Shown here: one piece after another, positions 42,048 to 46,406 of the stretch
Position numbering within the stretch: the first letter of the stretch is position 1
Layout: each line of letters opens with the position of its first letter
Source of the DNA: Fibrobacterota bacterium
GTDB taxonomy: Bacteria; Fibrobacterota; Fibrobacteria; UBA11236
Assembly: GCA_028287465.1 (NCBI GenBank)
Contig: JAQBPO010000029.1
Location: 1 to 57,897 of the forward strand
Reading direction: 5' to 3'
DNA length: 57,897 nt
Made by a program: the position numbers and the translations under genes
The notes under the pieces: generated by a model
What the model was told of the DNA's origin: nothing
Database searches by the model: none
The model's input: only the letters and a program-made list of their open reading frames with translations

Positions 42048-42084
42048 ATAGGTTCCGCCTATCGCCCGCATCGGATCAAACGAT
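42048..42084 (+). promoter_or_regulatory. OxyR-type operator upstream of the rubrerythrin operon
   Basis: The tetrad pattern ATAG-N7-CTAT-N7-ATCG-N7-CGAT is found at 42048-42051, 42059-42062, 42070-42073 and 42081-42084. The OxyR recognition pattern in enteric bacteria is ATAG-N7-CTAT-N7-ATAG-N7-CTAT. The first half-site is exact and the second keeps the spacing and symmetry with one base changed in each tetrad. It lies 60 bases before the rubrerythrin start, where an activator would contact RNA polymerase, and an oxyR gene with both redox cysteines lies at the other end of the cluster. Confidence 0.65.
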
Positions 42085-42143
42085 TGGCCGCTGGCGGTCG
42101 AACAGGACTACCTTAGGGCCGGGACAACCAGCCAGGAGGAACC

Positions 42144-42617
42144 GTGTACGCCGACCAATCCGCAACCATGAAAAACCTCGAATCCGCCTTCGCGGGGGAA
42201 TCGATGGCGCATATCAAATACCTGCACTTCGCCAAGATCGCGCGCGCCAATGGGCATGCGGAAGTGGCCCAGGTCTTCGAGGAAACCGCGGCCCAGGAGG
42301 TCAAGCACGCCTTGGCCCACGCGGAACTGATTTACCCAGGGCAGCTCGTGGATACCGCCAAGGCGCTTGAGCTCGCCATCGAAGGGGAAACCTACGAATA
42401 CACGGAAATGTATCCCGGGTTCAGGTTGGATGCGGAGAAGGAGGGGAACCTCGCCGCCAAACGGGAGCTGGAAGGACAGATCCAGGAATCCAAGGAGCAC
42501 GCCGAGCTCTTCAAGGCGACCTTGGCGACCGCGGCAAAGCGCTTCGCCGCGCTGGCCCGCATCGAGGAAAAGCACGCCAATAACTATCGCGCGACATTGG
42601 AAAAGGTGAAGGCCTGA
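42144..42617 (+). CDS. rbr: Rubrerythrin (di-iron domain only)
   Basis: This 157-residue ferritin-like protein reduces hydrogen peroxide at a di-iron site. The helices carry the expected ligands: [53 protein letters not shown] and [10 protein letters not shown]. The C-terminal rubredoxin domain of classical rubrerythrin is absent; the end ([17 protein letters not shown]) is short. A separate rubredoxin gene follows after 17 bases and would supply the electrons. The GTG start follows GAGGAA, and no better ATG is present before residue 9. Confidence 0.93.
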
Positions 42618-42634: not shown

Positions 42635-42805
42635 ATGAAAAAGTGGAAATGCGTCGTATGCGGATTCATCTATGACGAAGCCGAGGGCATGCCCGCCGAA
42701 GGCATCGCGGCCGGTACCCTCTGGAAGGATATTCCGGAGGACTGGACCTGCCCGGATTGCGGCACCTTCAAGTCGGATTTCGAGATGACCGAGTTGAAGG
42801 GGTAG
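42635..42805 (+). CDS. Rubredoxin
   Basis: A 56-residue protein, [14 protein letters not shown] at the start, with both iron-binding pairs: CVVCG (Cys6 and Cys9) and CPDCG (near residues 39-42). The spacing between pairs and the W-x-C-P motif are as in typical rubredoxins of 52-56 residues. It is preceded by GGAGGA. It lies between rubrerythrin and an FAD-dependent reductase and is very likely the electron carrier from the reductase to rubrerythrin. Confidence 0.95.
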
Positions 42806-42811
42806 CCTGGA

Positions 42812-43972
42812 ATGCCGGCTGCGGGAATAGTCATCGTCGGCACCGGGCTCGCTGGATACGGCGTGGCTAGGGAGTTGCGGAAATGGGACGCGACCGTTCC
42901 CCTCACCTTGGTGACGGAGGATGAGGGCGCCTACTATTCCAAGCCGCAATTGTCGGCGGCCTGGGGTTCCGGCAAGACGCCGGAACAACTGGTCCTGAAG
43001 GACGCCGCATCCATGTCCACCGATCTGTCCGCGGAAGTCCTGACCGGGAACAGGGTGACCGGCGCGGATAGGGATGGCAATCGCATCGTATTGGAGGATG
43101 GCAGGGAAATCGGCTTCCGGAAACTCGTATTGGCGGTGGGCGCCCGCGCTCGCATTCCGGCGATAACGCTCAGGGACGGCGCGCGGATCCATTCCGTGAA
43201 CAATCTCGCCCACTACGCGCGCCTCCGGGAATCCCTCCCTGGGCAAGGGCGCTTGGCCATCCTGGGTGCGGGGCTGATCGGATGCGAATTCGCCCACGAT
43301 TTCGCCCAGGCCGGATTCCAGGTCACCTTGATAGGACGCGGGGCGGGCCTGCTCGAAGGCCTGGTACCCGATAGCGTATCCTCGGCCTTGCAGGATGCTC
43401 TCGGTAAACTCGGCGTCCGGTTCCTGGCCAACCAGGGGATCGAAGACCTCTCGGCTTCAGGGACGGGATGGAGGGCGCGCCTCCAAGGCGGACAATCCGT
43501 GGATGCGGATGCCTTCCTCTCCGCCATCGGATTCCTTCCGAACCTCGATCTGGCGACCCTGCTCGGATTGGAAACCGGTCGCGGCATCAAGGTCGACCTG
43601 AGCCTCCGGTCCTCCCGCCCGGAGATATTCGCCTTGGGGGATTGCGCCGAAATCGCCGGCCGGTGGCTTCCCTTCGTCCTGCCGATCAACCACTCGGCAA
43701 AAGCCTTGGGCCAGGTCCTGGCGGGGAAGGAAGCGCAGGTTACCTTTCCCTTGATGCCGGTCCTGATCAAGACGCCTTCGTTTCCTTTGGCGGTGCTTCC
43801 TCCACCCCGGGAATCCCAGGGAACCTGGACGGAGACTTCCGACTCCGGAGGGGTCTCGGCACGATTCAGGGATGCGGAAGGTCGTGTACTGGGCTTCGCG
43901 GTGGGCAGGAACCGATACCCGGAACGCACGGCCCTATTACGGGAAATGGCCGGTCAATCTCCCGTATCCTGA
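42812..43972 (+). CDS. FAD-dependent rubredoxin reductase-like protein
   Basis: This 386-residue pyridine nucleotide-disulfide oxidoreductase binds FAD through IVIVGTGLAGYGVARELRK and DAEI-type ending (FALGDCAEI). It binds NAD(P)H through LAILGAGLIGCEFAHD. Similarity of YYSKPQLSAAWGSGKTPEQL to NorW and AlkT-type rubredoxin reductases supports transfer of electrons from NADH to rubredoxin. It follows the rubredoxin gene after six bases and completes a NADH to rubredoxin to rubrerythrin chain for peroxide. Its 3' end overlaps the convergent oxyR gene by 19 bases. Confidence 0.88.
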   Translation: MPAAGIVIVGTGLAGYGVARELRKWDATVPLTLVTEDEGAYYSKPQLSAAWGSGKTPEQLVLKDAASMSTDLSAEVLTGNRVTGADRDGNRIVLEDGREIGFRKLVLAVGARARIPAITLRDGARIHSVNNLAHYARLRESLPGQGRLAILGAGLIGCEFAHDFAQAGFQVTLIGRGAGLLEGLVPDSVSSALQDALGKLGVRFLANQGIEDLSASGTGWRARLQGGQSVDADAFLSAIGFLPNLDLATLLGLETGRGIKVDLSLRSSRPEIFALGDCAEIAGRWLPFVLPINHSAKALGQVLAGKEAQVTFPLMPVLIKTPSFPLAVLPPPRESQGTWTETSDSGGVSARFRDAEGRVLGFAVGRNRYPERTALLREMAGQSPVS

Positions 43973-44904
43973 AGGGCCCGGAATTTACGACCCTCCCGGG
44001 GCGCCTTCGCATCCAGCTTAGCCAAGTGCCGACCTATTTCCTTGGCCCATTTCGCCAGGAAGACCGAGCGTGGCGCGCCTTTGCGCCAAGCAAGGGCGAT
44101 TTTGCGGCTAGGGATCGGTTCTTTGAACGGAAGGTACCGGATGGAGGCTGCCTGGCTGATGGGAGCTTTGACCGCGAGCCAGGGCATCAAGGTGATCCCG
44201 TTTCCCGACCCGATCATCTGCCGGAGGGTTTCCAGGCTGGTCGCCCGGAAAAAAGGATGCTCATGGGCCCCGGTCTGGCGGCAGACCGCGAGGGCCTGAT
44301 CCTTCAGGCAATGTCCCTCCTCAAGGAGGTATAGGATTTGGCCCGATAGATCTTCGCCCGTAAGCGACTGCTTACGGGACAAGGCATGCCCGGCCGGGAC
44401 GGCCAGGTAGAACGGTTCGGTGAAAACCTCCTCCATTTCCAGGCCGGCCTGGCCGATGGGCAGGGCCAAAAACGCGGCCTCGATCTTTCCTTCCGCCAGT
44501 GCCGCCAACAAATCCCGGGTCTGCATTTCCGAAAGGAAAAGATCCAGATTGGGATGTTGCTTGCGCGCGAAGGGTACGACCAAGGGCATGAGGTAAGGTG
44601 CCAAGGTGGGTATGACGCCCAGTTTCAAGGGACCCGATCGAGGATCCTTCAAGGACTGTGCGGCATCCGCCAGCCGCCGCGCTTGATCCAGTATGCCAAG
44701 CGCGAATGGCAGCAACCCGTCGCCGGCCGGCGTCAATCGGACGCCCCGCGCGCTCCGTTCGAACAGGGAAACCCCGAGTTCCTCCTCGAGCTTCTTCAAT
44801 TGTCCGCTCAGGGTGGGTTGGGAAACGAAACACCGCTCCGCAGCCAGGCGGAAATGCCTGAGATCGGCCACGGCGGCGAAGTATTCCAGATCGCGGATAT
44901 TCAT
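43954..44904 (-). CDS. oxyR: Hydrogen-peroxide-sensing LysR-type regulator
   Basis: This 316-residue LysR protein has the N-terminal winged helix (MNIRDLEYFAAVADLRHFR, CFVSQPTLSGQLKKLEEELG). The redox cysteines are in EEGHCLKDQALAVC, at residues 199 and 208, the same numbers as in E. coli OxyR, where they form the activating disulfide. The effector domain also has SLETLRQMIGSGNGITLMP as in OxyR. It is convergent with the rubrerythrin, rubredoxin and reductase genes and very likely controls them through the site at 42048-42084. Whether it also regulates itself is not visible. Confidence 0.94.
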   Translation of the reverse strand: MNIRDLEYFAAVADLRHFRLAAERCFVSQPTLSGQLKKLEEELGVSLFERSARGVRLTPAGDGLLPFALGILDQARRLADAAQSLKDPRSGPLKLGVIPTLAPYLMPLVVPFARKQHPNLDLFLSEMQTRDLLAALAEGKIEAAFLALPIGQAGLEMEEVFTEPFYLAVPAGHALSRKQSLTGEDLSGQILYLLEEGHCLKDQALAVCRQTGAHEHPFFRATSLETLRQMIGSGNGITLMPWLAVKAPISQAASIRYLPFKEPIPSRKIALAWRKGAPRSVFLAKWAKEIGRHLAKLDAKAPREGRKFRALQDTGD

Positions 44905-45533: not shown

Positions 45534-46406
45534 TTAGGGTTTTTTCTGCAACTTAAGGGGGACGCGCGCGAAGGCCATTTTCGGAAGAGGCATCAGGAAA
45601 GGTTGTTCCCGGCTGAACTTGTCCTTGACCATCTCCCGGCCCGGGGATTCTTCGCGGCCCAGGAGCCATCCAAGCAAGGCGGTATTGGCGCCTTCAAGCG
45701 TCTTGAATGGGTACCCCCTCAGGAAGAGCACTTCGATCATCCGCAGGGGACGCTTCAGGCGGCCAATCGCCCATGGGGAAAATGCCCGGGCAGGAACGGG
45801 AACGAATCCATGATGGCCGGCGAACCGCGCCATGGGGAGGTTTACGCCCGCTCGCCCAACCAAGGCCTTGAGATGGCGGTTCCGCGATCTTTCATAAGCG
45901 ATTTCCGCGGGCACCCCCTGGAAATACCGGAAGGCCCGGATGTGCCATTCCAGGAAAGCGTCCAGGTCGGCGCGATCGGACAATTCGGCGTAGATGCGGC
46001 CCGAAAAATCCAGGCAAAGGGTGAACAGCCACATGGTATGTCCGGCCAAGTCGACCCGGCCCAAATCCGCGGTGGCCCGGGCTCCGGGGGCCGGGGCGGA
46101 GTCGCCGCGTTCAATGCCCAGTCTGAGCGATCTGACTTTGCGCTTCACCAGGTCGTAACTTCCGGAATATCCCTTCGCTTTAAGCGCGCGGAAAATCTCT
46201 ATTGAACGCGCGTCCGGATTTTCGCCGAGCATTTCCGAAAGGGGGATTAGGTAACTTGCGAGTTTCCCAGGGTCATGCCCTACGCCGGCCACGGTCCCGG
46301 CAGTCAGGTATTTCCTGAGGGTGTTCCGGCTTACGCCCAACATCCGGGCGATCTTGCGACGGGAGAATCCGTCCCCGGTCAAAGCCAATGCGGCTGCAAT
46401 GTCCAT
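45534..46406 (-). CDS. IS21 IstA-like protein, catalytic residues lost
   Basis: This 290-residue protein has an N-terminal helix-turn-helix (FSRRKIARMLGVSRNTLRKYL) and an integrase-like core following IstA: ADLGRVDLAGHTMWLFTLCL, DFSGRIYAELSDRADLDAFL, AFRYFQGVPAEIAYER. Asp114 is retained, but the second acidic residue of the D-D-E triad reads Glu172 in AYERSR. The glutamate of the usual K-V-E-R motif is Lys218 in GRLKRP. No istB gene is adjacent and the frame is intact. An intact but catalytically dead frame suggests a domesticated DNA-binding protein, or a recently inactivated transposase. Confidence 0.7.
   Translation of the reverse strand: MDIAAALALTGDGFSRRKIARMLGVSRNTLRKYLTAGTVAGVGHDPGKLASYLIPLSEMLGENPDARSIEIFRALKAKGYSGSYDLVKRKVRSLRLGIERGDSAPAPGARATADLGRVDLAGHTMWLFTLCLDFSGRIYAELSDRADLDAFLEWHIRAFRYFQGVPAEIAYERSRNRHLKALVGRAGVNLPMARFAGHHGFVPVPARAFSPWAIGRLKRPLRMIEVLFLRGYPFKTLEGANTALLGWLLGREESPGREMVKDKFSREQPFLMPLPKMAFARVPLKLQKKP

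Follow-up and report, generated by a model that had tools for sequence, protein, structure and literature searches.

Does the operator that OxyR binds in enteric bacteria also control a rubrerythrin operon in the Fibrobacterota? The window analysed here, a stretch of 57,897 nt from a genome of 5.8 Mb (G000), contains four short tetrads upstream of a rubrerythrin gene and an oxyR gene that lies convergent at the end of the same cluster. Judging from the sequence, it is very probable that the tetrads form a genuine OxyR operator controlling a rubrerythrin-rubredoxin operon, with or without a rubredoxin reductase gene.

The probable operator and its predicted promoter

The candidate operator is located at 42048-42084 on the forward strand. 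Its 37 bp read ATAG-GTTCCGC-CTAT-CGCCCGC-ATCG-GATCAAA-CGAT, or ATAG-N7-CTAT-N7-ATCG-N7-CGAT, and the spacing of 4-7-4-7-4-7-4 is held without deviation. The rubrerythrin gene begins with a GTG at 42144, 59 nt downstream of the operator's 3′ end. An earlier note on this DNA had described the same four tetrads with seven-base gaps, some 60 bases before the rubrerythrin gene, and the letters agree with that description. The promoter-distal half of the operator is canonical. The promoter-proximal half, ATCG...CGAT, carries an extended conserved sequence (AAACGATTGG) and is the better conserved of the two. The extended form that is conserved is ATAG-N7-CTATC-N6-ATCGgATCAAACGATTGG, in which TGG directly follows the last tetrad.

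We scored sites as matches out of 16 to the enteric consensus (ATAG-N7-CTAT-N7-ATAG-N7-CTAT). The operator scores 14/16, versus 11/16 for the runner-up place in the window. In a first-order Markov simulation with the composition of the window, 14/16 matches occurred by chance at 0 of 19.3 million positions. Under a first-order Markov model, the chance expectation for 13/16 or better is about 3.3 matches in a genome of 5.8 Mb and about 1e-4 in an intergenic region as large as this one. A genome-wide pattern search of G000 found the operator to be the sole match with two or fewer mismatches, and two other places had three.

A predicted -10 element (TACCTT) is located at 42109-42114 on the forward strand. 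In 5/5 species of the genus, the first base of the last tetrad is followed at exactly 28 nt by the start of a TAnnnT hexamer, which reads TACCTT, TAGCTT, TACATT, TATCTT or TAGATT; none of 5000 shuffles gave a TAnnnT shared by all five species at any offset. The same strand has a possible weak -35 element (TTGGCC, 42084-42089) that overlaps the operator's final base and is separated from the -10 by a spacer of 19 nt. Its TTGG is kept in 5/5 species. OxyR of E. coli activates from a position next to the -35 region. Given this constant distance of the -10-like box, the last tetrad is predicted to fall at about -40 to -37, adjoining the weak -35 (TTGG), and transcription would start near 42121, downstream of the operator. 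By that spacing, the site adjoins the -35 region of the promoter it would control.

The same geometry bears on the direction of control. OxyR could bind here and mainly repress, or act in both of its states, in which case rubrerythrin would be derepressed and not activated. Activation and repression are indistinguishable by sequence alone, and the OxyR of Shewanella is reported to regulate H2O2 scavengers in both its reduced and its oxidised form (PMC6416212). However, a last tetrad near -40, with the -10 fixed and no good -35, is in the classical position of an activator, and we consider this alternative improbable.

The operon and the convergent oxyR gene

The rubrerythrin gene (42144-42617, forward strand) is preceded by an AGGAGG ribosome site at 42134-42139 and encodes a sulerythrin-like protein of 157 aa. 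The protein has a ferritin-like domain (PF02915, 3.4e-19), and its likely diiron ligands (E19, E52, H55, E82, E85, E141, H144) are invariant. The C-terminal rubredoxin-like domain of the classical form is absent from it, and rubredoxin is encoded separately. An insert of some 25 residues that precedes the last ExxH helix is common to all six orthologs of the family and is missing from the aligned Phenylobacterium rubrerythrin that is discussed below. A suspected loss of the Glu of this ExxH motif proved to be an alignment artefact of the inserted segment, as E141 and H144 are conserved. The next gene (42635-42805, forward strand) encodes a rubredoxin of 56 aa (PF00301, 5.3e-21). It is followed by a gene for an NADH:rubredoxin reductase of the NorW type (42812-43972, forward strand; PF07992, PF18113; top NCBIfam model NorW), the C-terminal domain of which is rubredoxin-binding.

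The oxyR gene (43954-44904, reverse strand) is convergent with the operon. Its product has the HTH and substrate domains of the LysR family (PF00126, 2e-24; PF03466, 7.2e-45), and its closest relatives in the PDB are OxyR proteins (4x6g, 3.8e-64). The best NCBIfam model is the OxyR equivalog at 304.1 bits, which is 25 bits under the model's cut-off of 329 bits, a bookkeeping threshold and not a biochemical feature. The next OxyR model scores 210 bits and the next other LysR family 160 bits. The earlier note had placed a convergent oxyR with Cys199 and Cys208 at the cluster end. Alignment to E. coli OxyR confirms this, and the two cysteines have the same numbers in both proteins. The motif GHCLxDQAxxxC, which holds the peroxidatic Cys199 and the resolving Cys208, is invariant in E. 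coli, in five species of the genus and in a further genome of the phylum that carries OxyR (G014), and the recognition helix shares the stretch QPTLSGQ with E. coli OxyR. By these features the product is a bona fide OxyR.

Two other features of the locus were observed. The 3′ ends of the reductase gene and oxyR overlap by 19 bp (43954-43972), and the two transcripts could pair. An IS21-transposase-like gene, with a score under the curated cut-off, is located nearby at 45534-46406. A plasmid origin was considered and rejected, as no match was found among plasmids.

We infer that OxyR binds the operator, responds through a redox switch and probably activates the rubrerythrin and rubredoxin genes, together with the reductase gene where it is present. 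A tetramer of OxyR, made from the convergent gene at the cluster end, would sit on the four tetrads. H2O2 would oxidise Cys199, which would form a disulfide with Cys208. At the weak -35 region beside the operator, the oxidised protein would then contact RNA polymerase and so switch the operon on from the -10 at about 42109. The operon would supply a complete chain from NADH via the reductase and rubredoxin to rubrerythrin, by which H2O2 is reduced.

In G000, OxyR may have almost no other target than this operon, with weaker sites possible. A second site of comparable quality was not found in this genome. No motif was found near the AhpC/TSA-family genes of G000, G002 and G004 (30 examined of 33 found) or in the upstream region of oxyR itself, and G000 has no catalase-peroxidase gene. 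One place with a single mismatch to the half motif (C80:10554), which falls at the 3′ terminus of an ORF with a convergent gene opposite, was taken as chance. True OxyR sites can fit the consensus less well.

Distribution of the site and its possible readers

A close ortholog of the rubrerythrin was found in five relatives, four from the same genus (G002-G005) and one from another genus of the same family (G008). The earlier note had proposed a comparison of the regions upstream of these genes. The tetrads are conserved in 4/4 relatives that have both rubrerythrin and oxyR: the operator is in the same place with the exact spacing, scores 13-14/16 and is kept even though the gene upstream of it differs among species. 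The oxyR gene is convergent with the operon in all four. With the source genome, the operator is thus kept in 5/5 species of the genus that have both genes. G008 retains rubrerythrin (83% identical) and rubredoxin, but has neither oxyR nor the operator. In just two of the five species, G000 and G004, does the reductase gene stand between rubredoxin and oxyR.

Across the phylum, OxyR is found in 7/168 genomes. The motif, with one mismatch at most, occurs at the rubrerythrin gene in each of the five congeneric species that carry OxyR. Elsewhere in the 168 genomes it occurs seven times in one genome (G010), singly and scattered in four genomes, and at one extra place in G000, and a reversed control motif had 0 matches. 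In two genomes with OxyR, no such operator was found in the stretches examined (12 kb in G014, 2.7 kb in G161). In another genome, a four-tetrad OxyR-like match with two mismatches (G001:C20:28719-28755) ends on a LysR gene's start codon. It was set aside: the protein is just 32% identical to OxyR, and the genome is without rubrerythrin. The earlier note's claim that OxyR activates the rubrerythrin-rubredoxin-reductase genes in this phylum therefore has to be narrowed. The conserved site and the fixed predicted -10 argue for activation of the rubrerythrin and rubredoxin genes, but the reductase is optional and "in this phylum" is too broad for what is found in one genus and perhaps one relative.

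We also scanned about 85,000 species genomes of bacteria and archaea once for the motif CTAT-N7-ATYG-RWWYAAA-CGATTG, blind to gene content. About four chance matches were expected, which is our estimate from the information content of the pattern. The scan gave 15 matches, seven in Fibrobacterota and eight outside the phylum. Three of the eight are within unrelated coding genes, as chance would give. The other five are upstream of peroxide-defence genes. In an Acidobacteriota MAG (L144:2976, minus strand), an ATAG-CTAT-ATCG-CGAT operator lies between divergent oxyR and peroxiredoxin genes. One match precedes ahpC in Methylophaga, and two precede ahpC-ahpD operons in Algimonas; these two come from related species and can be counted as a single event at most. 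In a Phenylobacterium MAG (L139:5490, minus strand), the four tetrads and the extended CGATTGG are upstream of a rubrerythrin gene, and the frame that follows reads as an Fe-S oxidoreductase. This is likely to be an OxyR-controlled rubrerythrin in the Alphaproteobacteria.

The seven sites in G010 (Fibrobacteria nGRbin1, of the same order as G000) raise the question of which protein reads the motif. The copies (L053:4855, L054:5383 on the minus strand, L055:5148, L056:3002, L057:5300 on the minus strand, L094:843, and one on the minus strand of L095) are at promoters, with a -10-like box at 27-28 nt. Their targets are a thioredoxin operon, the transhydrogenase genes pntAA-AB-B, a sigma factor, YceI, a CDGSH protein, CIA30, and cytochrome c7 with respiratory-complex genes (ACIII). 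No LysR substrate-domain protein was found in this assembly, which is 79% complete, and HTH_1 occurs in it only as a protein of 126 aa. Most likely, oxyR is encoded in the part that the assembly lacks; a different reader of the motif in G010 is possible.

Extended to the whole family of sites, such a reader would make oxyR a mere neighbour of the rubrerythrin operon and the resemblance to the four enteric tetrads a matter of shared architecture. G010 lends this some weight, with seven sites, no LysR substrate-domain protein and a single HTH_1 protein of 126 aa, and with transhydrogenase, sigma factor, YceI and respiratory genes as targets that are not the classic OxyR set. So does the operator itself, in which AAACGATTGG and not the canonical ATAG half is the more conserved. 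However, oxyR may simply be missing from an incomplete assembly. Within the genus, the site goes together with oxyR, both are absent from the sister genus (G008), and in unrelated phyla the motif is found at promoters of oxyR/peroxiredoxin, ahpC and rubrerythrin genes. We therefore regard another regulator as very unlikely and retain OxyR as the reader of the operator. That the tetrads are a chance match beside an unrelated promoter has a negligible probability: the pattern was chosen post hoc by a reader of 58 kb, but every oxyR-bearing relative in the genus conserves the tetrads, they are absent where oxyR is absent, and their distance to the -10 is fixed, which rules chance out.

A wider picture is tentative, and we hold it to be somewhat short of probable. 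It would combine a local, nearly single-target OxyR switch for an NADH-rubredoxin-rubrerythrin peroxidase operon, an asymmetric operator whose promoter-proximal half bears an extended signature (ATYG-RWWYAAA-CGATTGG) that Acidobacteriota and Alphaproteobacteria have as well, and a spread of this operator in a sister family, where the regulon would take in genes for thioredoxin, transhydrogenase, a sigma factor and respiration.

Comparison with known systems

In the literature searched, which left subscription papers mostly outside, we found no paper on OxyR in Fibrobacterota and none that shows OxyR directly controlling a rubrerythrin gene. Where that literature describes a peroxide sensor encoded beside a rubrerythrin operon, the sensor is PerR, as in the PerR-controlled operons of Desulfovibrio and Geobacter (PMC545781). 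As in G000, the gene of the sensor is found together with those of rubrerythrin and rubredoxin, but PerR is a repressor of the Fur family and has another operator, whereas the sensor here is the LysR-type OxyR.

In plan, the operator is close to those of oxyS/oxyR, katG, ahpC and dps in E. coli, which likewise have four tetrads with 7-bp gaps just upstream of a weak -35. In the E. coli upstream regions, the best matches to the consensus, which may not be the footprinted sites, score 14 (oxyR/oxyS), 13 (ahpC), 11 (katG) and 10 (dps) of 16. The Fibrobacterota operator differs from the enteric ones in its promoter-proximal half, with ATCG...CGAT and the extended AAACGATTGG, and in its target, which is rubrerythrin and not catalase or Dps. 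That half has a parallel in Pseudomonas aeruginosa, where the OxyR sites of ahpB, ahpC and phnW have ATCG/ATTG tetrads in the promoter-proximal half (PMC5720770). The footprinted phnW site (ATCG-GAACAAA-CAAT) is close to the ATCG-GATCAAA-CGAT found here. The P. aeruginosa sites score 12-13/16 versus 14/16 here, and the target genes differ.

The site at the Phenylobacterium rubrerythrin has the same four tetrads and CGATTGG, but there the Fe-S oxidoreductase frame takes the place of rubredoxin. The case suggests that sequence alone is enough to recognise the enteric four-tetrad operator in other phyla, and the extended signature finds peroxide-defence promoters in unrelated phyla. It also offers a one-operon OxyR circuit that is open to testing. 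On present evidence it is a well-supported, predicted addition to a known type of switch, in which an OxyR operator governs a rubrerythrin peroxidase chain.
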